Assembly: GCA_020061125.1 (NCBI GenBank)
Contig: JAGUYV010000238.1
Coordinates: forward strand, 1 to 18,087
Source: a bacterium
GTDB taxonomy: Bacteria; UBP15; UBA6099; DSWB01
Direction: 5' to 3'
Length of the DNA: 18,087 nt
How positions within the stretch are numbered: the first letter of the stretch is position 1; each line of letters starts with the position of its first letter. Shown here piece after piece: positions 2,651 through 16,898 of this stretch. The notes under the pieces are model-generated. The model had not been told where the DNA came from. It searched no databases and saw only the letters and a list, made by a program, of their open reading frames with translations. A program made the position numbers and the translations under genes.

Positions 2651-3649
2651 TTATAAACTGATGTTGGGTTGTGGCGATAATGGCAGTTTATTGTTGCGGT
2701 GTATGAAATTATGATACCCGGCGCAGGCAACCATGGCGGCATTGTCCGTGCATAGGGCAAAATCCGGGCAGAAAAACGGCAGTCCAGAGCGCGAGGCTTC
2801 CCGCTCCAGCCGTTGCCGCAGCGCGGTGTTCGCGGCCACACCCCCGCACAGCAGCACCGATGCCGCACGGGATTCCTCCGCAGCACGCATGGTCTTGCGC
2901 GCCAGCACTTCCACCACGGCGTCCTGAAATTCCGCGGCCAGTTCGGGCACGGAAAGTTCTATGCCCTCTCGTTTAAGTTTTTTCAGCAGATTGACCACTG
3001 CGGTCTTGAGTCCGCTGAAACTGAAATCAAAGGAATCGTCGTGCAGCATTGGTCGTGGGAGTGAATATTGCCTTGCGCTGGCTGAATTCGCGGCTGCGGA
3101 TATGGCAGGGCCACCCGGATATGGCAACCCCATGAGCCGCGCCACCTTGTCAAATGCCTCCCCCGCCGCATCATCCCGCGTGCTTCCAAGTATTTCATAT
3201 TGTCCGAACTCTTTCATGAGCACAATTTCCGTGTGACCACCGGAAACAAGAAGACACAAGGACGGAAGTAAAGGCTTATTTGTGGTCAAAAAATTTGATA
3301 ATATATGCGCTTCAAGATGATTGACTCCTATAACTGGTCTGTGCAATATTTGACTTAATGATCGTGCACAAGATATACCTACGACAAGACTTACCATCAG
3401 TCCAGGTCCTGTAGTTACTGCTATAAGATCTATTTTATCTGCATTTAAGTTTGCGTTATTTAATGCATTTTCAAGCACTAAATTGATTATTTCAGTATGC
3501 ATTCTTGCAGCAATCTCTGGAACTATCCCCCCAAATTCCGCATGAGCCATAACCTGCGAAGAGACAATATTGGACAATATTTCCGTGCCATATCGCACAA
3601 CTGCGATGGATGTCTCGTCGCAAGATGTTTCAATTCCGAGCGTAAGCAT
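2651..3649 (-). CDS. tsaD: tRNA N6-adenosine threonylcarbamoyltransferase TsaD
   Basis: TsaD transfers the threonylcarbamoyl group from TC-AMP to A37 of ANN-decoding tRNAs, with TsaB and TsaE (not in the window). The 332 aa match the usual ~335. Visible features: GIETSCDET (5-13), HAEFGGIVPE (36-45), the metal ligands H111 and H115 in NHLEAH, the nucleotide loop SGGHTE (136-141), GEAFDKVARL (163-172), FSFSGLKTA (209-217), CGGVAAN (268-274) and D302 in CTDNAAM, the third metal ligand. ATG 3649 has GGGA about 8 bases upstream. It is the last gene of the aspS-lspA-DUF4127-tsaD unit, 162 bases after the DUF4127 stop, so it may also have its own weak promoter. Oddly, roughly the first 135 codons are AT-rich and the rest GC-rich, yet the protein is intact. 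Confidence 0.97.
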   Translation of the reverse strand: MLTLGIETSCDETSIAVVRYGTEILSNIVSSQVMAHAEFGGIVPEIAARMHTEIINLVLENALNNANLNADKIDLIAVTTGPGLMVSLVVGISCARSLSQILHRPVIGVNHLEAHILSNFLTTNKPLLPSLCLLVSGGHTEIVLMKEFGQYEILGSTRDDAAGEAFDKVARLMGLPYPGGPAISAAANSASARQYSLPRPMLHDDSFDFSFSGLKTAVVNLLKKLKREGIELSVPELAAEFQDAVVEVLARKTMRAAEESRAASVLLCGGVAANTALRQRLEREASRSGLPFFCPDFALCTDNAAMVACAGYHNFIHRNNKLPLSPQPNISL

Positions 3650-3811
3650 TCATTGATTCCCAAAATTCCGACCTGAATATACAGCGGCTTTCAGTTGTCC
3701 GTTGAGTGGCGCTGGCCATAAGCGAAACATTTAACTTTGAAACGGTATTATTGTACATAAAATTGTCTATACTGTAACTATTCTTAATGAAAGCTATCAT
3801 CTTCTGGCAGG

Positions 3812-5374
3812 TCAGCATCTTTTGATCCCTGGCTTATCGGCTCTAGTAAAATCAATTTTCATGACGCTGAAATGCGCCTGCGGAACAACTTCACATTCAA
3901 AAAGACGGCTCCACGGAAGTTTGATACTTTTAATTCCAGCATGAGAAAAAACAAGATTGATATTTTCAGATAAGCATGTATCAAATGATCTGTCAATGAT
4001 ATTTTTTTGAATGTTAGAATTCCATATATCAATCATCATTTTGTTTAAAATCGGATTGATTTGAATCGTATTTTCAATACTGTGAGGATTTTCGCATTCT
4101 CTTACCAGCTTACACCGGACTCTGCTCTGGTAAATATCATCATCAGCAATTCGCTCTAAAATCAATGAAGCATGTTCTGAAAGAAACCGTTGATCTTCAA
4201 TAATAATATCATTATTTGAATGAATCCAGGACGCTATTGCAGTTGATATAGTTGTTCCAGTGGTGTTTGATGCTGTGTTCCACGCGGCCCATGCGCCAAG
4301 TTTGAATAGCAATTGACGGGAGATCAGTTCATTGGTTAACGACGGATCCGCGCCGTTGGCGAATGCAATGTCCGCCACTGCGGACATTTGTTTTTCGCGA
4401 GCCACGGCTTTTGCGAATGCTGTGTAATATTTTTTGTCCCGCGCGGGTTTTGGGGGCGTGCGCAGTCCACCCATTTGCAAGGCGAACAAATCCTGCTGCT
4501 GCTCTTTGGGACAATGCAGAAACAGGCGGATATCATAAGGTTTTCCGGGCTGCGCCACCCTGCCCCCTGCGGCGCGGATCTGTTCCCGCAGGGTTTTGTC
4601 CAGCTCACGGCTCTCGAACAGGGGCGTGCGCGCCGGAAAATCCGACCCTCGAGAATCAATGAGAAACGCTGGCTTTTTCTTGATCTTTTCAGATATATAC
4701 CGTGATATCAAGAGGCATGTGAGTTCATCCGTGCCATTGATAACCATGGCGCGGCTCGATATCTTCTGTTCCCGGACAACGCGCCGCAGATCGCTGATTT
4801 CCCGCCTGAACGGGTTTGTTGGCGCGGTGTCCTCCTTGCCCAGAAGCGCGAAATCCACGGTCCCATCCGCTGTCAGTTCGAGAACCGCGCGGTTCACAGA
4901 CGCGTTGCGCTGGCGCAGATTCGTGAACCATTGCGGGTACGGCCCTCTGCCTGACTGTAGCCGCTGCCACAGGGCGAAGTCCTCATCATTGCGCACGGAC
5001 ACGGAATCCCGGAGAATCACGCCCGTGGCCATGATGCGCAAATCCGGGAACTTGCGTTTGAGGTGCCGCAGCAGGTCCAGCTTTTTCAGCGCCAGATCGC
5101 AGGAAACCCTGTTTTCACGGGAAAAAATCAGTCCACCGTAACAAAGCAAATCCGCGGAGACGAACAAAACCGGCGATTTTGATGTCAGGGTATCAAAGAT
5201 CCAGGACCGCAGGGCCTCGAAATCGGCTGGAGAATGCAGGCCGCCGAGCATGCCTCGCGGCGGCGTGGCCAGGCGCACACCCGCCAGACGGGCCAGGGAC
5301 ACGGGCAGTCGCACGCTCACCGGCCGGCTGTCAAGCGGCAGCAGCACACAGTTATCGGCCACGCGCCAGCTCAC
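3812..5374 (-). CDS. DUF4127 family protein
   Basis: A full-length member (520 aa) of the uncharacterised DUF4127 family, recognised by LLPLDSRPVSVRLPVSLA near the N-terminus (11-28), the segment ADLLCYGGLIFSRE (74-87) and the near-invariant WNTASNTTGT in the C-terminal third (about 372-381). No enzymatic role is established to my knowledge. There is no signal peptide or membrane segment. The start is uncertain: GTG 5374 has a purine-rich GAGGA right against it, so GTG 5362, with that site about 11 bases upstream, may be the real one. Both overlap the end of lspA, implying translational coupling. The last ~170 codons (3812 to about 4330) are strikingly AT-rich compared with the first ~350, part of a 1.1-kb low-GC block that continues into tsaD. 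Confidence 0.88.
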   Translation of the reverse strand: MSWRVADNCVLLPLDSRPVSVRLPVSLARLAGVRLATPPRGMLGGLHSPADFEALRSWIFDTLTSKSPVLFVSADLLCYGGLIFSRENRVSCDLALKKLDLLRHLKRKFPDLRIMATGVILRDSVSVRNDEDFALWQRLQSGRGPYPQWFTNLRQRNASVNRAVLELTADGTVDFALLGKEDTAPTNPFRREISDLRRVVREQKISSRAMVINGTDELTCLLISRYISEKIKKKPAFLIDSRGSDFPARTPLFESRELDKTLREQIRAAGGRVAQPGKPYDIRLFLHCPKEQQQDLFALQMGGLRTPPKPARDKKYYTAFAKAVAREKQMSAVADIAFANGADPSLTNELISRQLLFKLGAWAAWNTASNTTGTTISTAIASWIHSNNDIIIEDQRFLSEHASLILERIADDDIYQSRVRCKLVRECENPHSIENTIQINPILNKMMIDIWNSNIQKNIIDRSFDTCLSENINLVFSHAGIKSIKLPWSRLFECEVVPQAHFSVMKIDFTRADKPGIKRC

Positions 5375-5858
5375 TCCTCATCAGGGCGTATCCGAACAGG
5401 AACACGCCAAGCACGATGCACGAATCCGCGAGATTGAACGCGGGCCAGTGATACGCGCCCGCATACACATCTATGAAGTCGAACACGCCTATGGCAGGCT
5501 CGCGGATGCGGTCCGCCATGTTGCCCAGCGCGCCCCCGAGAATGCACCCAAGGCCCAGGATGCCCGGAAGTTCAGAGCGCCGGTCTTTGCTGAACAACAG
5601 CAGTACAAAAACCAGAACGATAAGCCCGGAGGGCAGATACAGGAAAATGCGCGGGTGCTGGTCCAGCATGCTGAACGCGCCGCCCGTGTTGTGGCGGAAC
5701 ACCAGGTTCACATGGTTTTTCACAATGGCGTACACGCCGTCCGGGTCCTTGTTCATGAACGCCTTGACCGCGCTTTTGGTCCACTGGTCGGCCACGCACA
5801 CGAAAAAAGCGACTAATATCCCTGAAATTCGGTATTTGAAATTAGCGAGTTGCTTCAT
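5352..5858 (-). CDS. lspA: Lipoprotein signal peptidase (signal peptidase II)
   Basis: LspA is the inner-membrane aspartyl protease that cleaves the signal peptide from diacylglyceryl-prolipoproteins. The 168 aa have four hydrophobic segments (about 9-25, 70-89, 97-113, 139-160). Diagnostic motifs are ADQWTK (23-28), HNTGGAFS (56-63), GNMADR (112-117) with catalytic D116, and FNLADS (141-146) with catalytic D145. ATG 5858 lies 12 bases after the aspS stop, and the gene's end overlaps the DUF4127 start, so aspS, lspA and DUF4127 form one unit. Nothing is missing. Confidence 0.97.
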   Translation of the reverse strand: MKQLANFKYRISGILVAFFVCVADQWTKSAVKAFMNKDPDGVYAIVKNHVNLVFRHNTGGAFSMLDQHPRIFLYLPSGLIVLVFVLLLFSKDRRSELPGILGLGCILGGALGNMADRIREPAIGVFDFIDVYAGAYHWPAFNLADSCIVLGVFLFGYALMRSELARGR

Positions 5859-5870
5859 GCTAATATCCGA

Positions 5871-7667
5871 TCACACCTCGTCGGGCAAATCGAGCTTGAT
5901 GTACACCTCGCGAAGCTGCTTGCGGTCCACCTCGGCGGGAGCGCCGGTCATGAGGCAGCTTCCGGTGGCGGTTTTGGGGAACGGGATCACATCGCGGATG
6001 GAGCGCTCGCCGAGCATGAGCATGATGAGGCGATCCAGGCCCAGGCCCATGCCGCCGTGGGGCGGCGCGCCGTAGCGGAACACCTCGAGCAGGAACCCGA
6101 ATCGCTTTTCGGCTTCCTGATCGTCAATGCCGATCACATTGAACACGCGCTTTTGCAGTTCAGGAGTGTTGATGCGCAGGCTGCCGCTGCCGATTTCCAC
6201 GCCGTTGATCACCAGGTCGTAGAGCTGGCCCAGGACCGCGCCGGGATCGGATTCCAGCAAATCAATGTGCTCCTCGCGCGGCATGGTGAAAATGTGGTGC
6301 ATGGGCGCCCATCCCTTGCGCTCGGGGTCCCACTCGAACATGGGGAAATCCGTGACCCAGAGGCACGAGAACCGGGCCGACGGCTCGGGCTTGAGCTTGC
6401 CGATAATGTACAGGCGCACATCGCCCAGAATGGGCGCAATCTCTTCGGCCGGCCCGGCCACGAAAGTGAGCAGATCGCCCGGCTCGGCTTTGAACACATC
6501 AATCAGATTCTGCTGAATCTGCTCGTTGAAGAATTTCACGATGTTGGACTTGAGTCCCTCGGGCGTGACGCGCATCCAGGCCAGGCCCGTGGAGCCGAGT
6601 TTTTTGGAATACTCGATGAGATCGTCAATGTCCTTGCGGGACAGGGCTTCTCCGCCCTTGACATTGATGCCGCGGATTCTTCCCCCTTTGGCGATAACGC
6701 CCTCGAACACCTTGAAATCCGAGCCTTTGATGGCGTCCGTGATGTCCGTGATCTCGAAGCCGTAGCGCGTGTCCGGCTTGTCCGATCCGTACAGGTCCAT
6801 GGCCTGCCGGTAGGTCATGCGCGGGAACGGAGCGGGTGCGTCCACGGCGCATCCCTGCTTGAGCATGGATGAAATCATGCCCTCGACCAGCTCGAAGATC
6901 TGCTCCTGGGTCACAAAGCTCATCTCGAAATCAATCTGCGTGTGCTCGGGCTGGCGGTCCGCGCGCAGATCCTCATCGCGGAAGCACTTCACGATCTGCA
7001 TGTACTTGTCGAACCCGCAGGCCATGAATGTCTGCTTGAACAACTGCGGGGACTGGGGCAGCGCGTACAGGGAGCCGGGGATGAGGCGCGACGGGACCAG
7101 AAAGTCGCGCGCGCCTTCGGGCGTGCTTCGGGTGAGCACGGGCGTCTCCAGTTCGAGGAATCCCCTGTCCGCGAAATAGTTGCGCACGAACCGGTTCATA
7201 TCCGATCGGAACGCGAGATTGCGCTGCATGCGTTCGCGGCGCAGTTCCAGGAAGCGGTGACGCAGGCGCACGCGTTCATCTTCGTCGCCTTCCTCGTTGA
7301 CCGGGATCGGGGGAGGCTCGCTCGCGGCGAGAATTTTCGCCTCTGACGCCAGAACCTCGATTTCTCCGGTGGGAAGTTTGGGGTTGGCCATGTCCCCGGG
7401 GCGCATGCGCACCCTGCCCCTGATCGCCACCACGAATTCGATGTGCAGGCTGTCGCCGAGCTTGAACACTTCTTCGGAAACATCCGCGGGGTCGAAGACA
7501 ACCTGCGTGACCCCGTACCGGTCCCGCAGGTCAATGAAGATCACGCCGCCGTGATCACGGCTGCGGTTCACCCAGCCCATGAGACACACATCCGCGCCAT
7601 TATCCGAAGCGCGCAAAGCGCCGCAGGTGTGCGTGCGCCGCCAGTCGCCCAGTGGTTCTATTTTCAT
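5871..7667 (-). CDS. aspS: Aspartyl-tRNA synthetase, bacterial type
   Basis: Class IIb synthetase of 598 aa, the normal bacterial length. An N-terminal OB-fold anticodon domain opens with CLMGWVNRSRDHGG (28-41). The catalytic core shows motif 2 in CFRDEDLRADRQPEHTQID (about 228-246), the GAD insert in the middle, and motif 3 GMGLGLDR (539-546). ATG 7667 is chosen because homology begins at MKIEPLGDW and GGGAG lies 9 bases upstream; an open frame extends further but does not look like AspRS. His39 in RDHGG and RPGD (89-92) sit where, as I recall, non-discriminating AspRSs carry His and Gly while E. coli has Leu and Lys; the enzyme may also charge tRNA-Asn. It is the first gene of the aspS-lspA-DUF4127-tsaD unit. 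Confidence 0.97.
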   Translation of the reverse strand: MKIEPLGDWRRTHTCGALRASDNGADVCLMGWVNRSRDHGGVIFIDLRDRYGVTQVVFDPADVSEEVFKLGDSLHIEFVVAIRGRVRMRPGDMANPKLPTGEIEVLASEAKILAASEPPPIPVNEEGDEDERVRLRHRFLELRRERMQRNLAFRSDMNRFVRNYFADRGFLELETPVLTRSTPEGARDFLVPSRLIPGSLYALPQSPQLFKQTFMACGFDKYMQIVKCFRDEDLRADRQPEHTQIDFEMSFVTQEQIFELVEGMISSMLKQGCAVDAPAPFPRMTYRQAMDLYGSDKPDTRYGFEITDITDAIKGSDFKVFEGVIAKGGRIRGINVKGGEALSRKDIDDLIEYSKKLGSTGLAWMRVTPEGLKSNIVKFFNEQIQQNLIDVFKAEPGDLLTFVAGPAEEIAPILGDVRLYIIGKLKPEPSARFSCLWVTDFPMFEWDPERKGWAPMHHIFTMPREEHIDLLESDPGAVLGQLYDLVINGVEIGSGSLRINTPELQKRVFNVIGIDDQEAEKRFGFLLEVFRYGAPPHGGMGLGLDRLIMLMLGERSIRDVIPFPKTATGSCLMTGAPAEVDRKQLREVYIKLDLPDEV

Positions 7668-7742
7668 GCGTATCCGGCTCCCGTACCCGTTGTTATGCGG
7701 AATCGCGCGGGGAAAATCCGCGCGCCGCTGATTGAACATTGT

Positions 7743-7771
7743 ATCATAACTGTTTTCATGGCCGCGTTCAA
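7743..7771 (-). promoter_or_regulatory. Putative promoter of the aspS-lspA-DUF4127-tsaD unit
   Basis: On the minus strand TTGAAC (7771-7766), 17 bases and TATGAT (7748-7743) lie about 70 bases before the aspS ATG. The rest of the 292-base gap (7668-7959) has no gene I can support and no convincing terminator for the gene ending at 7960. Confidence 0.5.
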
Positions 7772-7959
7772 TGCAAAGCATGCGGGGCGCACAGGATACG
7801 GCCGCCGGGCGCGCCCATGGAAAACAGGCTGCCGCTCCGGACATGAAAGCCATGATACAAACAGAACCGCGCCCGCAATTTATGGCAAATCCAGTGCTGC
7901 ATTTATTCATTGTATTAGAAATAAATCTTAGTTAATGTAAGAGTAGAAATTAATAAGCA

Positions 7960-9018
7960 TTATTGAATGGAATCCACGGAGACTTCCTTGTTCTCGCGCG
8001 CGGCGGTTTGCACGGCGATCTGCACGGCCAGCGCCTTGCGCGCATGCGCGGCGGACAATTCCGGCCGCCTGCCCCGCGCCACGCGCTCCAGAAAATGCGC
8101 GGCCGAAGCCTCAAGACTTTGCTCCCAGTCAAGAGCCATACCGCTGCCCACGCCCAGGGTATAGTGTTTTTTCCCGCGCCGCACCTCGATCCACGGCGCT
8201 TCGGTGAGCTTGCCGTGAAAATGGTTGCACCAGATGATGCCGTCGGTGCCCGCAATTTCCAGGGTATCGTCCACTGGCAGCCCCGTGGCGCGGATTTCCG
8301 TGTCCGGCGCAAAGGTGTGCTCGAACACCCCGTAGCGGCCCGGCGCGCGGAACTTGCACCCGGCTACGATGCGCCCGCCCCGGCGGGGCTTCATGGAGCT
8401 GTGATAGCAGCACACGGACTCGACCCCTCCGAGCAGGTAAACCGCCAGCGCGTATTTGTCAAAAGCCGGATGAAAAAAGGCTTTTTCACCCTTGAGCAGA
8501 TCGGGCAAAGGGCCGGAACCGCCGCGCCCGGCAAGATTTGAGCGCACACGAATGGCGCAGACCTCGCCGATTTCTCCTTCCCGTATAAGCCGCCTGACTC
8601 TGCGGTGCGGCTCGAAAAACAGGGAATAATCGTTGACCCGCAGGAAAGCGCGGCCGCGGTGCGCCGCGGCCATGAGCGCGTCCGCCTGTTCCATGCTGTA
8701 TGCGAACGGTTTCTGCAGGGAGACATGGCGGCCTTTTTCGAGCAGGGAGCGCGCCACGATGTCCCGATCCGCGCCCAGATCCAGAACCTCTACGGCTTCT
8801 GCTTGAGCCGCGAACTCGTCGAATTCTGAAAATACGCTGTGAATGCGGCTGTCCGTAGCGAATTTCAGCAATGCTTCCTTGTCCGGGGAATAGACGGCCA
8901 GGGATTCGAGGCGCGGCTGTGCGGCATACGCGCGGATCACGGGGTCGAGCAGGGGGCCGCCGCCTGCGATGCCGATGCGCACGGCGGCGTGCGGCTTGTT
9001 TGCGCTGCGTTTCGCCAT
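7960..9018 (-). CDS. Gfo/Idh/MocA-family protein, probably degenerate
   Basis: A 352-aa protein with an N-terminal Rossmann domain (IGIAGGG, 15-21) and a C-terminal alpha/beta domain of the Gfo/Idh/MocA NAD(P)-dependent sugar oxidoreductase family. The family EKP motif reads QKP (102-104, in HVSLQKPF). Where the paralogue upstream has the catalytic DxxxH, this one has HPAFDKYALAV, so the usual His is missing. It may bind a nucleotide or sugar without standard catalysis, or use another mechanism. ATG 9018 lies 4 bases after the stop of the 98-aa gene. It is the last gene of a three-gene unit. I cannot tell the substrate. Confidence 0.82.
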   Translation of the reverse strand: MAKRSANKPHAAVRIGIAGGGPLLDPVIRAYAAQPRLESLAVYSPDKEALLKFATDSRIHSVFSEFDEFAAQAEAVEVLDLGADRDIVARSLLEKGRHVSLQKPFAYSMEQADALMAAAHRGRAFLRVNDYSLFFEPHRRVRRLIREGEIGEVCAIRVRSNLAGRGGSGPLPDLLKGEKAFFHPAFDKYALAVYLLGGVESVCCYHSSMKPRRGGRIVAGCKFRAPGRYGVFEHTFAPDTEIRATGLPVDDTLEIAGTDGIIWCNHFHGKLTEAPWIEVRRGKKHYTLGVGSGMALDWEQSLEASAAHFLERVARGRRPELSAAHARKALAVQIAVQTAARENKEVSVDSIQ

Positions 9019-9022
9019 GGCG

Positions 9023-9319
9023 TCACCAGTCATAAACATAGTTGCGCAGGTACCCGCGAATCGTGGATTTGACCTGTCCGGGCCTTGCGTCCAGCAGAAT
9101 GCGGCGCAGCGCCTGCGACAGGGGCGAGCCTGTGCCAAAATACTCTTCGAGTTCATCGAGCCGCAGCAGGAGTTCGCCGCCGTCGTTGCGTTCCTGCATC
9201 CTGGCCGAGGCGCGCGCCGCGCGCACCAGTTCCGCGAGCACGGGATCCGGCAGCTTCATGGCCGTGGACAGAGCGCCGTACACCAGTTCGGTCTGAATAT
9301 CCAGAAACAGGTTTTTCAC
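9023..9319 (-). CDS. 98-aa hypothetical protein between two Gfo/Idh/MocA genes
   Basis: I do not recognise this family. It is mostly helical by composition, acidic in the middle (GELLLRLDELEEYFGTG, 48-64) and ends in IRGYLRNYVYDW; there is no signal peptide or membrane segment. The start is GTG 9319, whose last two bases are shared with the upstream TGA (GTGA overlap), with GGAG 8 bases before it. This tight coupling on both sides is the best evidence that it is real. The position suggests a small partner of the flanking oxidoreductases, which is inference. Confidence 0.7.
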   Translation of the reverse strand: MKNLFLDIQTELVYGALSTAMKLPDPVLAELVRAARASARMQERNDGGELLLRLDELEEYFGTGSPLSQALRRILLDARPGQVKSTIRGYLRNYVYDW

Positions 9320-10431
9320 CGGTTGAACTCCTGAATGAACGCGTCGTCCACCTGGTCCGGACGCACCTCGGAGCGCGTTTTGCCCGCGATGATGCAGGCG
9401 AACGCGAACTGAATGACCTTCTTGCCGCGCTCGCCCGTAAGGCTTGGCTCTCCGCCGTGCTTCACGCACTGCACGAAGTGGCGCGTGGAATCGCTGAAGC
9501 TGTCCTGCCAGTCCGCGCGCAGGTCGTCGAACAGAACGCGGCGGCCGCGCTTTGTGAGCACGAGCGCCGGGGCGTCCAGCAACTGCGCCGTGCACCGGGT
9601 GATGGACAGGGATCCTTTTGTGCCTGTGACATCAATGCGTTCGTCCGCCGGAAAATATTTCGAGCGATTGTACAGATTGGGACTCAACGCAAGATCGAAA
9701 ATGCCCACGCAAGGGGAATTTTTGTAGCGCCACATCAGAACTCCGGGCATGTCCGCGAACGCGAACGAGCGATCCACCCACCCGCGCACGGATTCGATGT
9801 CCCCGAAGATGTCAATGGCCTGCGAGAGCTTGTGGTACCCGTCATCAAATACGGCCTGGCCCATGCCCTTTTCCACTTCGAGCAGATGCCACAGCTCCAC
9901 GGAAAGCGGATACGGGCGCGAGCCGAACATGTTGGTGCCGAGCTTGAAGCGCACGGTCAGCGGCTCGCCGATTTCCCCGCCCGCGATGAGTTCCCTGGCC
10001 TTCACGAACGGAGGATAGAATACGAAGTTCTCAAACACCTTGAACAGCACTCCGGCGCGGCGCGTGGCCTCTATCATGCGGTCCGCTTCGAGGATGGTGG
10101 TGCACATGGGCTTCTGCACGGATACATGCTTGCCCGCCCCGGCCGCGGCCTCGACCATGCCGCAATGCAGATGGTGCGGGGTGAGCACCTCGACCAGGTC
10201 CACCTCGGGATCCGCCAGAAGATCGGAATAATCCGTGTAGGTTCTGGGAACGCCCCACTGTTCCCGGCGCAGGGCCAGACGCTCCGGATCGGGGTCGCAG
10301 ATGGCGTACAATTCGCAGTCCGGGTTGTCCACATATCCGGGACGGTGCATCATGGAGATGTCGCCCACCCCGGCCAGGGCAGCCTTAAGCTTTTTCTTTG
10401 AGGGCGGTTTTTTCGGTTTGCTGCCTGTCAT
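9316..10431 (-). CDS. Gfo/Idh/MocA-family NAD(P)-dependent oxidoreductase
   Basis: A 371-aa oxidoreductase with a lysine-rich N-terminus (KPKKPPSKKK, 5-14), then a Rossmann beta strand and dinucleotide loop (AALAGVGDI, 17-25), CDPD at 45-48, and QKP at 106-108 in place of the family EKP. In the C-terminal domain FDDGYHK (195-201) supplies the canonical D196-xxx-H200 pair, so it looks catalytic. Such enzymes oxidise or reduce sugars, inositols and related polyols; the exact substrate cannot be read. ATG 10431 is chosen where conserved sequence starts; a TTG at 10452 is in frame but lies close to the predicted promoter. It is the first gene of the unit, and the next start overlaps its TGA. Confidence 0.9.
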   Translation of the reverse strand: MTGSKPKKPPSKKKLKAALAGVGDISMMHRPGYVDNPDCELYAICDPDPERLALRREQWGVPRTYTDYSDLLADPEVDLVEVLTPHHLHCGMVEAAAGAGKHVSVQKPMCTTILEADRMIEATRRAGVLFKVFENFVFYPPFVKARELIAGGEIGEPLTVRFKLGTNMFGSRPYPLSVELWHLLEVEKGMGQAVFDDGYHKLSQAIDIFGDIESVRGWVDRSFAFADMPGVLMWRYKNSPCVGIFDLALSPNLYNRSKYFPADERIDVTGTKGSLSITRCTAQLLDAPALVLTKRGRRVLFDDLRADWQDSFSDSTRHFVQCVKHGGEPSLTGERGKKVIQFAFACIIAGKTRSEVRPDQVDDAFIQEFNR

Positions 10432-10473
10432 GGTGAAACCGCAAGCTTTCAAAGATGAATCGAACTCTTCAAA

Positions 10474-10521: not shown

Positions 10522-11967
10522 TTATGAGCGCGCCAGGCTGTGTTTGTAGGCGAACAATCTGTTTATCTGGTTGGTGCCCTCGTAAATCTGCGTGAGCTTC
10601 ACATCCCGGTATAGTTTTTCCATTCCGAACTCCTCCACAGGCCCGTCCTCGCCCATGATGTCCATGCACTTTGAAACGATCCGCACCGCCAGGTCGCTGG
10701 CGGTGTATTTGGCCATGGAACTGTAAGCGGCAATGAGGGACACATCCGTACGGCGCACATTTTTCGCGGCCAGCTCGCGTACGAGATTGTACATGGCCCG
10801 TGACTGGAATGCCGCGCCCGCGGCGCCGGAGCGCAGCAGCGCGGACGGCATGACATCCAGCGCCCGCATGAGCGGATGGCTCATGAGCTTGGGCACGCCC
10901 AGGAGATCGCAGGAGATCGTGGCGTCAAAATACAACTGGCGGGCCGCCTGGAGCTTAACGCAGAGGTCCGAAAGCGCAGCCTGGCACCACTGGCGTTCAA
11001 ACAGATAACGGCCATTGACCTTGGTGGCGTTCAGATAATCAAGCAACCGCTGGATAGCCCCGCGCGCGATACCTGTGGCGATGGCGCCAACGGGGCCTCT
11101 GGACGCTCCCAGCACATTTGATATCAGCGCTTCGCCCTCTCCCTCGTCACCCACCCGGTCCTCCTCGGGCACAAACACATCCTCGAACACAAGTTCCGAA
11201 GCCGGGCACGCCCTCTGGCCCATCTTCTTTTCGATGCGCCCCACCGAAAACCCCCTGGCGTCGTTCGGCACCACCAGGGACACCGTTGTCTCCACGGGGC
11301 GCTTGCGGTCGAGAACGGCGCCCACCCAGATGTAACGCGCCACGCTGCCGTTGGAGATAAACACCTTGCGGCCGTTCAGAATGTAGCCGCCGGAAACCTT
11401 TTTCGCGTGCGCGCTTAACCGTGCGGTTGCCATTTCGTCACGATCTTCCACATCGCTGCCCGCGTCCGGCTCTGTGATAGCCAAAGCGAAAAGCTGCGGC
11501 TCGCCCCTCTTTTCGGCCAGGGCCACGGGCTGCATATAGCGCGAGTAGTGCCGTATGTCCGGAGACAAAAGCAGAGGGCATAAACCCAGGGCGTGCGCAC
11601 CGAAGATGTTGGCCACACCCGCGCAGTGGCTGCACAACTCTTCCATCAGAACCGCGAAATGCGTGGTGTAGAATCCTTTGCCCCCAAACGGCGCGGGGAT
11701 GATGTAGCTCAAAAAACCGTGGGGCGAGGCGCGGCGAACAAGATCCCACGGGAAATATGTTTCATCCTCGCCGATCCTCCGGTCAATTTCCAGAGCTGCC
11801 GGCGCGATGTGCTTTTCCCCGAAAGCGCGCCCGTCCCTCTGTACGGATTCAAGTTCCCGGCGCAGGCCGGGCATGCTCTTTTCCAGCAAGAGCAGACGGG
11901 GATACGCTTCGCGCACGTCGCGCAGCCTGTGCCGCAGTCTTTCAGGGTCCATTCCGCTTCGAGTCAT
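10522..11967 (-). CDS. Acyl-CoA dehydrogenase (complete active site)
   Basis: FAD-dependent acyl-CoA dehydrogenase, which makes a 2,3-enoyl-CoA by alpha,beta-dehydrogenation. At 481 aa it is about 100 longer than classic members, with extra residues before the core and around 330-385. Motifs: PAPFGGKG (91-98), the FAD/acyl loop ALAITEPDAGSD (161-172), the binding strand KVFISNG (201-207), and QIYEGTNQINR (460-470), where E463 is in the position of the catalytic base. ATG 11967 has GGAG 7 bases upstream and starts 20 bases after the ADC-like stop; ATG 11952 is an alternative. It closes the FadR-led operon. No electron-transfer flavoprotein is in the window, so its acceptor is unknown. It may act alone or pair with the degenerate dehydrogenase two genes upstream. 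Confidence 0.93.
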   Translation of the reverse strand: MTRSGMDPERLRHRLRDVREAYPRLLLLEKSMPGLRRELESVQRDGRAFGEKHIAPAALEIDRRIGEDETYFPWDLVRRASPHGFLSYIIPAPFGGKGFYTTHFAVLMEELCSHCAGVANIFGAHALGLCPLLLSPDIRHYSRYMQPVALAEKRGEPQLFALAITEPDAGSDVEDRDEMATARLSAHAKKVSGGYILNGRKVFISNGSVARYIWVGAVLDRKRPVETTVSLVVPNDARGFSVGRIEKKMGQRACPASELVFEDVFVPEEDRVGDEGEGEALISNVLGASRGPVGAIATGIARGAIQRLLDYLNATKVNGRYLFERQWCQAALSDLCVKLQAARQLYFDATISCDLLGVPKLMSHPLMRALDVMPSALLRSGAAGAAFQSRAMYNLVRELAAKNVRRTDVSLIAAYSSMAKYTASDLAVRIVSKCMDIMGEDGPVEEFGMEKLYRDVKLTQIYEGTNQINRLFAYKHSLARS

Positions 11968-11987
11968 TTCAAGTCTCCGTTCCGCGC

Positions 11988-12758
11988 CTATTCCAGGCGG
12001 CTGGGTCCATAGAGGATGGCCTGGAATTCCGGCGAATACTGGTGGATGAGCGCAGTGCGGGACAGGAGCGCGCTCTTGTATTCGGCTGCGATGCGGTGGG
12101 TTTCGCCCAGTTCGATGCGCAGGCTTCCGGTAGCCGCGGTCTGCCCGAAGAGCTTCGCGTTCACCAGCACATCCGCGTGCTGCGCGCAATCATCCTTCAC
12201 GGGATAGGTCACGTACCGGTAGGTTTTCGAGTCCCGCGCCGGTATTTTTTTGGCAATGACTTTGAAGATTGTCTCCCCGTCCTCCGCCAGGGTCACGACA
12301 ATTTCATCGCCCCGGTCGTCGAACTCTATGGACGCCAGGAACTTGGGGTAGTTGTACACATTCACGCCGCCGTCGAGCGCAATTTTGGTGGTCACAGGCA
12401 GATGATGAACGAACACGTCGAACCGGTTTTTCATAAGCCCCGTAAGCAGGGACGCCGAAGGAACCACGCTCGGAGTTCCGTAGGTCATGGGAATGGAGAC
12501 GGATATCTCGTTGTAGGGCCTGATGTCCGTATCCCTGTACTCGAAGCAGGTCACGGCCACGGCGCCCACGCCAGGAAACAGGGGCGCGGGATGGAAGGAG
12601 CTTTTCGGCATGAATTTTTTAAGCGCGGACATTTTCGCCGGGAAAATTCCCGTGATGGACATTGCGTCGTAGTAGAACACCGGGATTTTCGCGGGTTCGC
12701 CTCCGAAGTCCCCGTCCACCTGGTAGACATTTTTGAAAAAAATCATGTCCCTCTGCAT
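11988..12758 (-). CDS. Acetoacetate decarboxylase-superfamily protein
   Basis: A 256-aa protein of the acetoacetate decarboxylase (ADC) fold. RPYNEISVSIP (80-90) contains the conserved acid E84. YPKF (137-140) aligns with the AYPKK of clostridial ADC, so K139 would be the Schiff-base lysine, but the next residue, Lys in ADC, is Phe140. That second lysine lowers the pKa of the first, so classic decarboxylation of acetoacetate is doubtful. Other superfamily members do aldolase, dehydratase or hydrolase chemistry through the same lysine. ATG 12758 has GAGG 8 bases upstream; an in-frame GTG at 12767 lacks such a site. The gene lies 10 bases after one acyl-CoA dehydrogenase and 20 before another. 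The fold assignment is secure; the reaction is unknown. Confidence 0.83.
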   Translation of the reverse strand: MQRDMIFFKNVYQVDGDFGGEPAKIPVFYYDAMSITGIFPAKMSALKKFMPKSSFHPAPLFPGVGAVAVTCFEYRDTDIRPYNEISVSIPMTYGTPSVVPSASLLTGLMKNRFDVFVHHLPVTTKIALDGGVNVYNYPKFLASIEFDDRGDEIVVTLAEDGETIFKVIAKKIPARDSKTYRYVTYPVKDDCAQHADVLVNAKLFGQTAATGSLRIELGETHRIAAEYKSALLSRTALIHQYSPEFQAILYGPSRLE

Positions 12759-12768
12759 GGCGTTCACC

Positions 12769-13842
12769 TCATCTCATGGTTTGAATTTCGCGATTGATAT
12801 GTTCAAGGCGGCGCGCGCGGGGCGCCGCCATGGCATGGAGCGTTTTGGCATCGCGCAGAAGCCGTTCGACCCTGTAGTCATTCATATAGCCGTACCCTCC
12901 GTGAACCTGCACGGCGTCAAGGCAGATCTGTTCCGCGCACTCCGCGGCCAGCGCGAACCCGAGAAGCCCGGAGCGTCCGCCATACGCCAGAGCGCAGGAT
13001 GCGGCTATCCGCGCGTCCATGTCCGCGAGCATGAGCCGCACCAGATCGTGATCGCAAATCATCTTCCCGCCCTGGCGCCGCTGAAGAGCGTACGCCACGG
13101 CCATGTCGCGCGCCTGTGCGGCTATGCCGATGGCTACGCTTGCGAACACGGGGTCTACGAACCGGTAATAGTCAAGCAGCGGAACCGGGCCGTCGAAGAT
13201 TTTTGTCACATTTTCTGACGCCACTTCGACCCGGTCGAACCGCACATCGTTCACCGGGCAGAATTTCAGACCCATCCGTGCGGTTTCGGGCATCACCTCA
13301 ACGCCCGGTGCGTCACGGGGCGCCACAACCCAGCACAACCCGTCCCCGCTCGCGGCCAGAACAGTGAAATACCCCGCAACACCCGCGCCGGCCACCCTGG
13401 TTTTCATGCCCGTGACGACAACCCCGTGGGCAACTTTTTCCGCGCAAGTATTCACGCGATCCGGTATCAGGCCCGGGTCCGCGGGGTTTTCTTTAATGGC
13501 TGGCGCGAAAATCGGCGGCGCGCCCTGCGACCCGGCCGCGGCTCGGAGCGGCCCGCTCGCGCAATTGTTGCCGTAAAGCAACAGCGGCGCAAGGCCGGCG
13601 AAATGCGCTGCGAGCAGAGCGCCTGCCCCGCCGCTGGCGCGCGACGCCTCCTCCAGAAACGCGCAATAGTCCGCCGCTCCAAGACCGGAGCCGCCTTGCT
13701 CCACGGGAATCGCGAATCCCGGAATTCCGGCTGCGGCCGCCCGCTCCAGAACGGCTTCACGCACGGCGCTGTTAATGCCATCCAGCAACTCCCACCGCTG
13801 CCACAGCGCATCCTTAGAAAAATCCGCGCCCAGTTTTCTCAT
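12769..13842 (-). CDS. Degenerate acyl-CoA dehydrogenase-like protein
   Basis: A 357-aa protein of the acyl-CoA dehydrogenase fold. The C-terminal VQVHGGYGYMNDYRVERLLRD (311-331) is classic, and IPVEQGGSGLG (45-55) matches the N-terminal domain. But the segment that should read like TEPxAGSD is FAPAIKENPADPGL (112-125), and no YEGT with catalytic Glu follows the HGG motif; the chain ends with KTLHAMAAPRARRLEHI instead. It may be the non-catalytic or FAD-sharing half of a heteromer, as in the alpha2-beta2 acyl-CoA dehydrogenases of cholesterol degradation, or use a base elsewhere. ATG 13842 overlaps the TGA of the SDR gene (ATGA); ATG 13854 would add four residues. Confidence 0.85.
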   Translation of the reverse strand: MRKLGADFSKDALWQRWELLDGINSAVREAVLERAAAAGIPGFAIPVEQGGSGLGAADYCAFLEEASRASGGAGALLAAHFAGLAPLLLYGNNCASGPLRAAAGSQGAPPIFAPAIKENPADPGLIPDRVNTCAEKVAHGVVVTGMKTRVAGAGVAGYFTVLAASGDGLCWVVAPRDAPGVEVMPETARMGLKFCPVNDVRFDRVEVASENVTKIFDGPVPLLDYYRFVDPVFASVAIGIAAQARDMAVAYALQRRQGGKMICDHDLVRLMLADMDARIAASCALAYGGRSGLLGFALAAECAEQICLDAVQVHGGYGYMNDYRVERLLRDAKTLHAMAAPRARRLEHINREIQTMR

Positions 13843-14768
13843 TTCGTTTTCCATGAGGCCACCATCTCCCTGAAGGCCTGCTCGGGCGTGCGCCGCGGCG
13901 TCCATCCGAGCAGCCGTTCCGCTTTTTCACAATTCAAATGAAAAGGGTATCGGGACAAAGTCACCCAATGCGACGATACGGGCGATAGGCCCAGCGCATA
14001 CGCGGCGTCCGACACAGGTTTGAGCAGAAAGTATGGAACCGCGACTCCGGGTTTGCCGATCAGCTTCAGCATTGTTGCGTAAGACAAGTTGCCGGCGGCG
14101 ATGTTGAACGCGCCCGGAATCCCTTTTTTCATCGCAAGATGGAACGCCCGGCCCGCGTCATCCTCGTGAACCAGAGGCAGTCCCCGCGGATTCGACGCCG
14201 GGTAGAAAACCACCCGGCCGGACAACAGGTCTGCAAAGAAATTATCCGTTCCGGGACCGCACAAAATGGACGGCCTGATCCGGGTTGCGATAATCCCGGG
14301 ATTATGTTTTTCGAACGAGTCAATCATGCCTTCCACAATGCGCTTGGTGCGCGAGTAATACGAATCCTCGTTCCCGGCCAGCTTAGCCTCCTCGGTCATG
14401 GGCGCCTCGCGGCCCGGCCTCGAACCGTAGGCGCAGATGCTGCTGGCCGCCACAAACCTCTTCACGCCCGCCGCACGCACGGCATCGAGAACGCGTTTCG
14501 TGCCGTTCACGTTGATTTCGTGAATCGCTTTCTTGTCCCGGATTTCGGACACAATAAACGCCATGTGAACCACGACATCCATGCCGTGAGCCGCCGCTTG
14601 CAGATCGCATGTTCTGACATCTCCCCTGATGAATTGGAATTTGGGATTTCTAACGCCCGGTTCGCGCATGTCCAGCCCGCGGACAAGCGTGACTTCATCG
14701 TCTCTGAACAGGTATGGAAGCGTGACACGCGCCACATAGCCGGATGTCCCGGTGACGAGCGCTTTCAT
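13839..14768 (-). CDS. NAD-dependent epimerase/dehydratase-family (extended SDR) protein
   Basis: An extended short-chain dehydrogenase of 309 aa, normal for this class. The dinucleotide loop is TGTSGYVA (6-13), an extended-SDR TGxxGxxG whose last Gly is Ala. GDVR (49-52) binds the adenine side, HMAF (68-71) follows, and the catalytic pair is Y138/K142 in YYSRTK with the Ser of AASSICAYG (108-115). Related enzymes epimerise or dehydrate nucleotide sugars, or oxidise 3-beta-hydroxysteroids; the residues do not decide between them. Next to acyl-CoA dehydrogenases a hydroxy-lipid or sterol-like substrate is as likely as a sugar, which is inference. ATG 14768 overlaps the TGA of the Fe-S gene (ATGA) and has GGGGG 7 bases upstream. 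Confidence 0.9.
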   Translation of the reverse strand: MKALVTGTSGYVARVTLPYLFRDDEVTLVRGLDMREPGVRNPKFQFIRGDVRTCDLQAAAHGMDVVVHMAFIVSEIRDKKAIHEINVNGTKRVLDAVRAAGVKRFVAASSICAYGSRPGREAPMTEEAKLAGNEDSYYSRTKRIVEGMIDSFEKHNPGIIATRIRPSILCGPGTDNFFADLLSGRVVFYPASNPRGLPLVHEDDAGRAFHLAMKKGIPGAFNIAAGNLSYATMLKLIGKPGVAVPYFLLKPVSDAAYALGLSPVSSHWVTLSRYPFHLNCEKAERLLGWTPRRTPEQAFREMVASWKTK

Positions 14769-16009
14769 GGCTTCGCCCCCTTCGTACCGGAACCGAAAGG
14801 CGCAACCGACCTGCGCAGCCACTCTCTGAACGATGCAGCGGCGTATGCGGGCAGCATTTTCAGCATGAGCGTTCCATAATCCCGTTCCGGCCCTTCCTTG
14901 CGCACGGCAATCAAATCCAGCGCATCGTTTTCACAGGCGGACACGCACAGGCCGCACCCGATGCAGCGTTGCGCATCATGGCGCGGAGATCCGCCCTCCA
15001 GAGACCACGCTCGCATGGGACATGCCGTTGCGCACCGCCCGCACGCAACGCACGCAGCCGGGTCCAAACGCGGCATGAACCGGGGCGGCGCGAACAGGCC
15101 GGGCGCGCTGAATTGCGTGACGGTGCGCAGCGCATGGCAGCAGCACCCGCAGCATGAGCAACTGTAGTTGCCCTCGCGCGGATTGCCGCCGTTCATCATC
15201 CAGGTGACGCACCCATGCTCTTCGGCAACGCGTTTCGCCTCGATGACTTCCGCGCGATCCGCGCGGCGCATAAGACCGCGCGCCAGGAGCGGTTCCGCAA
15301 CCGGGCCTATGGCCACGCAGTTTTCCGTAGGCTTTCCGCACCCTCGGCCGGACAGGTCCGTGACAACCCGGCACTGGCAATGCGCGATGCCGAACACATC
15401 GTAGGGCGCGAGCAGTTCCTCAATCATCTCCGCGGGGAACGCCGCCTGCACGCGGGACGCATTGCTCTGCGCTGGGATGTAACGCAACGGCGCGGGCGCG
15501 CGCCCCAGATAACCGGTAATGTATCCGGTGTCCCACACCTTCTCGAACAGTCCGGCGAACCGCTTGTGCCACGAGTTGGCGCGCGCCAGTTCCGGCGTCA
15601 CAATCGCCATCTCGAAGGTGCCCGGCACGAGCGGAAGGATTGTGTACCGCCGCGGTTTCCCCATCCAGAGAATCACTCTCTTGTTTTCCGCGAGGTTGTC
15701 CAGCAAGGCTTTGATGCGTTCGGGAGACTGCCCGCAGCGGCGGGCAACCTGCTTCGCCGTGAGGGGGCGCAGGGGCGCAAGATGCTGCGCCGCGTCCGCC
15801 TCGTCTTCGGTGAACATGTGCGCCACAAGTTCGAGCAGGGCCTCGCCCGGAGGCGGTCCGAACAGCAGCACGGACGAATAGTGCTTCATCAGACGGCGAT
15901 GCGCTCCCGTGACTTTCTTCGCGGAATCAAACCCCTGCATGCGGGCGGCGACATCAACATGCACAGAAACAACGGCCCTGCCGGACCCGGCTTTGCTTGA
16001 GGAACCCAT
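14765..16009 (-). CDS. Cysteine-rich 4Fe-4S protein with winged-helix-like N-terminal region
   Basis: A 414-aa protein I know only as an uncharacterised 4Fe-4S family. A winged-helix-like stretch (LTAKQVARRCGQSPERIKAL, 83-102) comes first. Then AHCQCRVV (209-216) with GCGKPTENC (223-231), and the cluster CSCCGCCCH (284-292). Last is a two-cluster ferredoxin domain, C320/C323/C326/C330 and C349/C352/C355/C359. The ferredoxin part should hold two [4Fe-4S]; the middle cysteines could bind a further cluster or metal. No signal peptide. It probably carries electrons for the enzymes encoded downstream. ATG 16009 has GGGAG about 10 bases upstream; ATG 15940 or 15889 would drop a poorly conserved leader. 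It is first after the regulator, and its last bases overlap the SDR start. Confidence 0.83.
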   Translation of the reverse strand: MGSSSKAGSGRAVVSVHVDVAARMQGFDSAKKVTGAHRRLMKHYSSVLLFGPPPGEALLELVAHMFTEDEADAAQHLAPLRPLTAKQVARRCGQSPERIKALLDNLAENKRVILWMGKPRRYTILPLVPGTFEMAIVTPELARANSWHKRFAGLFEKVWDTGYITGYLGRAPAPLRYIPAQSNASRVQAAFPAEMIEELLAPYDVFGIAHCQCRVVTDLSGRGCGKPTENCVAIGPVAEPLLARGLMRRADRAEVIEAKRVAEEHGCVTWMMNGGNPREGNYSCSCCGCCCHALRTVTQFSAPGLFAPPRFMPRLDPAACVACGRCATACPMRAWSLEGGSPRHDAQRCIGCGLCVSACENDALDLIAVRKEGPERDYGTLMLKMLPAYAAASFREWLRRSVAPFGSGTKGAKP

Positions 16010-16041
16010 AAATGGACATCTCCCAATGAGGCGCGGACCAA

Positions 16042-16066
16042 GCGGCGCAGCCGTCAATGCGCCCGC
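16042..16066 (-). other. Hairpin between the regulator gene and the Fe-S gene
   Basis: GCGGCGCA (16042-16049) can pair with TGCGCCCGC (16058-16066) with one bulged base and an 8-base loop. It lies in the only sizable gap of the operon (16010-16103) and has no T-run, so it could be an RNA-processing or attenuation element rather than a terminator. Confidence 0.3.
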
Positions 16067-16103
16067 AGCCCCTCTGAAAATTCAACTGGCGTGGCTCTTT
16101 CTT

Positions 16104-16841
16104 TTATATTTTCAAAACATCAATGCCCAGCGCGTTCAGAACCACATTCATGGCGGCCTTAACCGCAGCCTTGTTTTGTTCGAGGACCTCATCAACGAGA
16201 TCCGGGCGGTTTGAACAGACGGCGCGGATCAGGGATTCGTTGATTTTGAGGAACAGGTCTCTGGGCAGCGGCGGCAGCGGCATCACGCCAGAATCCACCA
16301 GCATGTTCAGCGTCTTCAAATATGTATTGAAAAACATCCGGAGGACGAGATTGTCACCAATGCGCAATAATTCGTTGTAGAAATCGCGCTCAATGTCCGC
16401 ATAATCCCGCGCCGTGATTCCCTGCGTGTACCGTTTAATGATTTCCATGAGCGCGCGCTCGTGGCCCGGCCCGGCGTTGATCGCGGCGGAAACACAAATC
16501 TGCCGGTAAAGCCAGTTGGCGAAATCATGCATGGCTCGGAAAGTTTCCGGATTGACCACAGCCTGGGGGCACGCGGCAAGAAGCGGAGACAGAGCGTCGA
16601 GACCAACCGTATGGCGGAAATCCAGCACTGTTGCGCCGCGGCCCTGCACGATTTCAATCCATTCTTCGCGAGCAAGTTCCTGCAGGGCCTGGCGCACCGT
16701 GACGCGAGACACTCCGTGCGTGTCCGCGATGTCGCGCTCCGCGGGAAGCCGCTGGCCAGCCCGATACCGGCCCGTGAAAATGTCCTGCCGCAGCCTTGCC
16801 GCAATCTGCGACGAGATCGCCTCTCGCTTCACAACCTGCAT
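16104..16841 (-). CDS. FadR-like GntR-family transcriptional regulator
   Basis: A winged-helix regulator, 245 aa from the chosen start. The N-terminal DNA-binding domain lines up with E. coli FadR: RLPAERDIADTHGVSRVTVRQALQEL-type sequence keeps the AER, SR and R residues that contact DNA, and IVQGRGATVLDFRHTVGLDAL matches the FadR wing and linker. The C-terminal half is helical and of FadR type, so an acyl-CoA ligand is a reasonable guess. I chose ATG 16841 because the alignment to FadR starts there; ATGs at 16847 and 16862 and GTG 16895 are in frame, but 16895 would sit about 5 bases from the predicted transcript start. It heads the operon, and a FadR-type operator overlaps its promoter, so autorepression is likely. 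Confidence 0.88.
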   Translation of the reverse strand: MQVVKREAISSQIAARLRQDIFTGRYRAGQRLPAERDIADTHGVSRVTVRQALQELAREEWIEIVQGRGATVLDFRHTVGLDALSPLLAACPQAVVNPETFRAMHDFANWLYRQICVSAAINAGPGHERALMEIIKRYTQGITARDYADIERDFYNELLRIGDNLVLRMFFNTYLKTLNMLVDSGVMPLPPLPRDLFLKINESLIRAVCSNRPDLVDEVLEQNKAAVKAAMNVVLNALGIDVLKI

Positions 16842-16898
16842 TGGCATACTTTCCAGGCTCATCGGCGTATCGGCCCATCCATGAATTGATTTCACCCT

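Follow-up and report, generated by a model that had tools for sequence, protein, structure and literature searches.

The window, the 18,087-nucleotide stretch of DNA that was analysed, contains six genes in a row on the minus strand. In order of transcription, these specify a GntR regulator, an Fe-S protein, an SDR, and three further proteins designated ACAD2, ADC-like and ACAD1:

16104..16862, minus strand: GntR/FCD-type regulator, 252 aa (Pfam GntR, 79 bits; FCD, 26.2, cut-off 24.3)
14765..16009, minus strand: Fe-S protein, 414 aa (Pfam Fer4, 4Fe-4S dicluster)
13839..14768, minus strand: extended SDR of the 3beta-HSD/epimerase type, 309 aa (Pfam Epimerase, 3Beta_HSD)
12769..13842, minus strand: ACAD2, degenerate acyl-CoA dehydrogenase subunit, 357 aa (Pfam Acyl-CoA_dh; motifs)
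11988..12758, minus strand: ADC-superfamily enzyme, 256 aa (Pfam ADC, 48.3 bits, cut-off 29.8)
10522..11967, minus strand: ACAD1, catalytic acyl-CoA dehydrogenase subunit, 481 aa (Pfam Acyl-CoA_dh; motifs)

The ADC-like gene sits between the genes for ACAD2 and ACAD1, from which it is separated by 10 and 20 bases, respectively. ATGA overlaps are present at the Fe-S/SDR and SDR/ACAD2 junctions, and a gap of 94 bases follows the GntR gene. This arrangement of six same-strand genes agrees base for base with the initial annotation, which had been made from the sequence alone. The enzyme identities given there were upheld by Pfam for each gene, save the label FadR for the regulator. Both a GntR HTH and an FCD domain were detected in this protein by Pfam, placing it in the GntR/FCD group, but its score against the NCBIfam FadR model was 62.4 bits, far under the cut-off of 249.2. 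FadR proper was therefore rejected, and the proposal that the regulator senses acyl-CoA is not supported.

The two acyl-CoA dehydrogenases were described as unequal, and this is apparent at the active site as well as in size. ACAD1 of the window contains TEPxAGSD and IYEGT, the latter with the catalytic Glu, as well as an extended N-terminus and an insert in the C-terminal domain. In ACAD2, the catalytic Glu is replaced by Ala and the flavin motifs RxQGG and QxxGGxGY are kept. Within the ACAD family, TEPxAGxD on the one hand and RxQGG/QxxGGxGY on the other belong to two sides of the FAD site. A motif survey of 51 ACAD1 and 45 ACAD2 sequences revealed the same division: TEPxAG(S/T)D is present in all ACAD1 and in essentially no ACAD2 sequences, the catalytic Glu in 50 of 51 ACAD1 and in none of the 45 ACAD2 sequences, while RxQ(GG) and QxxGGxGY, found in 43 and about 42 of the 45 ACAD2 sequences, are absent from ACAD1. 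One row labelled ACAD1 (L093, 15243) carries the complete set of motifs and represents an ordinary FadE. Judged by these motifs, ACAD1 and ACAD2 are complementary halves of one enzyme, with a predicted FAD site built from motifs of both subunits, and they probably form a heteromer.

Such a design is known from the alpha2-beta2 steroid ACADs, which act on CoA esters and have Glu in one subunit only and FAD at the interface (PMC8399759). The suggestion that the pair is heteromeric in the manner of these enzymes is thus supported by the split half-sites. The steroid ACADs ChsE4-ChsE5, ChsE1-ChsE2, Scd1AB and IpdE1-IpdE2 are likewise specified by two adjacent unequal genes, one of them with Glu, and share one FAD site between the subunits. 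Unlike these pairs, ACAD1/ACAD2 is linked to an ADC-like gene and not to steroid genes, none of which was recognised in the window, and ACAD1 carries the N-terminal extension and the insert. The best solved-structure matches of ACAD1 were canonical medium- and short-chain ACADs. The canonical butyryl/medium-chain enzymes belong to the same three-domain family and have the same motifs, but here these are divided over two proteins, neither of which holds the full set.

For the ADC-like protein, a sequence search of the PDB, profile included, yielded no credible match, and its placement comes from the fold search only. The structure was predicted with a pLDDT of 94.4, and all 24 Foldseek matches of this model at E<=0.001 were members of the ADC family. 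Comparison with decarboxylase, MppR and aldolase-dehydratase structures gave Z values of 20-24 over about 210 residues; MppR and the aldolase-dehydratase, ADC-family members with other known chemistry, have the same fold as the model. The candidate Schiff-base lysine, K142 (counted on P0002, the version of the protein starting at 12767), is present in at least 90% of 36 sequences, with L159 as the one clear exception, and was aligned via a bridging relative to the first Lys of PKK in the solved ADC 3bgt. The second lysine is replaced (YPKF in the window, PKF and similar in relatives). Without the Lys-Lys pair of PKK, the protein was not classed as a true acetoacetate decarboxylase. By model and alignment, it is a protein of predicted ADC fold with a Schiff-base lysine, two features in common with CaADC, MppR, Sbi_00515 and Swit_4259 of the superfamily. 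It is set apart from these by an identity of about 11-18%, the replaced second lysine, and a conserved FEYRxTDIxPYNE segment. Alkene/enone reductases were also detected near other ADC-family genes.

An ADC alignment was used to scan GTDB genomes and yielded 80 loci, 81 with the window, in which membership of the core was called with in-house profiles. ADC, ACAD1 and ACAD2 are present together in about 44 loci (45 of 81 by profiles, window included), the lower figure being preferred because a few loci are contig-end or overlapping-frame cases. Rare co-occurrence of the homologues had been named initially as evidence against a joint pathway; for the core, this was not found. The triad appears in many gene orders and, according to record titles and a tree, in Actinomycetota, Thermodesulfobacteriota, Myxococcota, Spirochaetota, and others. 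This recurrence in distant phyla bears out the idea of a dedicated redox module. The other members vary: a classical SDR lies in the same run as ADC in 19 of the 81 loci, an extended SDR in three, and the Fe-S gene in two. Taking both types together, SDR genes were recognised in only about 20 of 45 ADC loci. In L058, which is from another lineage and on the same contig as L105, SDR, ADC, ACAD1 and ACAD2 genes are grouped (45%, 40%, 36%, and 25%, respectively, against the window), with the SDR adjoining ADC. The L058/L105 locus also harbors genes for an oleate hydratase, a TetR regulator, a nitroreductase, and a ferredoxin. Of the distant members of the ADC family in relatives (L059-L069), only that of L066 has a clear ACAD1-like neighbour. 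At L064:4094-6099, in a genome belonging to the same order, a distant ADC-family gene adjoins a relative of the Fe-S protein, with no ACAD genes beside them.

In a reciprocal test, 42 genomes of one class were searched with an ACAD1 seed and the flanks of 26 ACAD1-type genes were fetched. In each of the 23 loci that a contig end does not truncate, ACAD2 lies next to ACAD1; ADC was located nearby in 13 of about 20 loci and is missing in about seven. In a tree built from 65 ACAD1 rows, both large clades include rows with the ADC label, and ADC-less rows are nested within one of them; no claim is made on the ancestral state because sampling started from ADC. ACAD1 of the window forms a deep branch in this tree and is by path nearest to L117 and L113, which have the extended SDR or the Fe-S gene in common with the window. 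At three loci, an Fe-S protein resembling QueG/reductive dehalogenases by sequence is specified beside the core (L113:5179-6495, L117:4789-5859, L136:3630-4643); two of these proteins were scanned and gave no Pfam match. In two actinobacterial loci, the core is followed by methyltransferase genes, one of the cyclopropane-synthase type and another (L086:6877-7740, L085:13735-14769).

The Fe-S protein of the window consists of a helical, winged-helix-like N-terminal part, a Cys-rich middle (CxCR, CxCCxCCC), and a C-terminal 2x[4Fe-4S] ferredoxin domain. Sixteen Cys residues are invariant across 21 relatives, eight in the ferredoxin domain and the rest in the CxCR/CxCCxCCC part. In a fold search with the predicted structure (pLDDT 86), solved folds matched the ferredoxin part only, leaving the Cys-rich middle unmatched. 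The protein is a member of a large paralogous family, with 28 and 24 matches in two genomes (G030 and G046). The wider family occurs near many anaerobic oxidoreductases, as judged from sequence starts only. As an anchor of the module it was rejected: its closest relatives (55% and 51%) are on contigs without ADC or ACAD nearby, their neighbours being carboxypeptidase, YchF and PriA in one case and an HGD-D-type dehydratase and carbamoyl phosphate synthase in the other. With the gene in two of 81 loci, window included, and its closest relatives elsewhere, the Fe-S carrier could not be upheld as an integral part of the pathway, as had been proposed, and is most readily regarded as a local partner for electron transfer.

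How the core might act can be outlined from its components. We consider the chances about even that it constitutes, with the SDR, a three-activity module for a keto- or hydroxy-lipid as the putative substrate. The SDR would interconvert alcohol and ketone. ACAD1 and ACAD2 would work as an obligate heteromer that introduces or reduces a double bond in conjugation with the carbonyl; the catalytic Glu and the isoalloxazine face of the flavin pocket would come from ACAD1, and the remainder of the FAD site from ACAD2. On the ADC-like enzyme, the ketone would be held through a Schiff base to Lys142 while the double bond is shifted into or out of conjugation, or the enone is hydrated and cleaved. Electrons would pass from FAD to ETF, for which genes are present in the genome of the window; in this organism, the neighbouring Fe-S protein is another possible acceptor. 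In favour of this keto-lipid reading, besides the co-occurrence of the core, the half-sites, and the ADC fold with its lysine, are the union of genes at L058/L105, where SDR, ADC and both ACADs are accompanied by oleate hydratase, nitroreductase and ferredoxin, the alkene/enone reductases near other ADC-family genes, and a precedent in L. plantarum, in which an SDR, an ADC-family isomerase and an enone reductase (CLA-DH, CLA-DC, CLA-ER) act in sequence on 10-hydroxy/10-oxo fatty acids (PMC13365329). Against it are the limited share of ADC loci with a recognised SDR and the scarcity of oleate hydratase, for which counts are given below.

The pair could instead be an ordinary alpha2-beta2 ACAD whose substrate is a bulky or branched acyl-CoA, with the SDR serving as hydroxyacyl dehydrogenase and the ADC-like protein decarboxylating or cleaving the resulting beta-keto acid, a possibility of appreciable, minor weight. 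It is favoured by the CoA esters used by the steroid enzymes (PMC8399759) and by the ADC-less loci, in which the same ACAD pair adjoins genes for an AMP-ligase (CoA ligase), enoyl-CoA hydratase (ECH), SCP2/lipid-transfer-type thiolase, nitroreductase, and SDR. These neighbours point to CoA thioesters and count against a plain ketone pathway. An AMP-ligase gene also lies directly before ADC in L085, and ligases of the same cluster are found in a few ADC loci. However, genes for ligase, hydratase and thiolase do not recur across ADC loci; among the relatives, the set of SCP2-type thiolase, ECH and ligase is confined to ADC-less loci. In addition, the ADC-like protein has YPKF where true decarboxylases have PKK and lacks their second lysine. 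ADC-less pairs beside thiolase, hydratase, ligase, or nitroreductase genes are located at L209, L216, L217, L218, and L222, in the class of G072; L216 also specifies an NAD(P)-flavin/Fe-S protein of 818 aa fused to a nitroreductase domain.

It is rather improbable that the operon represents a variant of the lactobacillus pathway for saturation of polyunsaturated fatty acids in which the ACAD pair replaces the enone reductase CLA-ER. The enzyme classes and the order of the chemistry are the same as for CLA-HY/DH/DC/ER, with an SDR and an ADC-family protein, by enzyme class, likewise directed at a keto-fatty acid, and L105 has a hydratase and a nitroreductase together with SDR, ADC and both ACADs. 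Its nitroreductase, however, is only weakly similar to CLA-ER (E 5e-4), and the hydratase is missing from nearly all other loci and genomes. The window differs from the L. plantarum set by its split ACAD and has neither a hydratase nor a CLA-ER-like gene. A search of plasmids for a Lactobacillus CLA-DC yielded none. Oleate hydratase genes were present in about four of 41 genomes reached via triad loci, compared to five of 60 in the relatives search, and oleate hydratase was rejected as a general partner of the core; none (MCRA) was found in the window's own genome, which is 79% complete. By far the least probable reading, that the six genes are mere neighbours without joint function, as the variation of gene order, SDR type, and Fe-S gene between loci might suggest, is already refuted by the co-occurrence counts for the core, though not for the Fe-S gene: membership is kept on re-association in distant phyla, the opposite of chance, and with about 15 ACAD genes in the 4.1 Mb of the window's genome, chance adjacency amounts to a few per cent.

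The component parts of the keto-lipid module are of known kinds, and the ADC-linked split ACAD looks like a so far undescribed combination. Searches for the gene set in open-licence papers yielded nothing relevant and no description of such an ACAD, in line with the earlier statement that no pathway with exactly this set was known. Tentatively, and with less confidence than in the module itself, a widespread undescribed pathway may be envisaged by which anaerobes and soil actinobacteria would saturate, desaturate, or cleave keto-lipids. In it, an ACAD split independently of the steroid enzymes and acting on ketones rather than thioesters would cooperate with an ADC-like isomerase or hydratase-aldolase that forms a Schiff base. 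A testable enzyme module is thereby named in several phyla, its carriers including uncultured actinobacteria from soil and syntrophic deltaproteobacteria, and the alpha2-beta2 ACAD design would extend beyond steroid degradation and be tied to Schiff-base ketone chemistry. For annotators, the paired half-sites provide sequence marks that distinguish these proteins from ordinary, unpaired acyl-CoA dehydrogenases.

The operon is followed downstream, without a change of strand (2651-10452 of the window), by two GFO/IDH/MocA oxidoreductase genes and, beyond these, by genes for a class II (D/K/N-type) tRNA synthetase, signal peptidase II, a DUF4127 protein, and TsaD.
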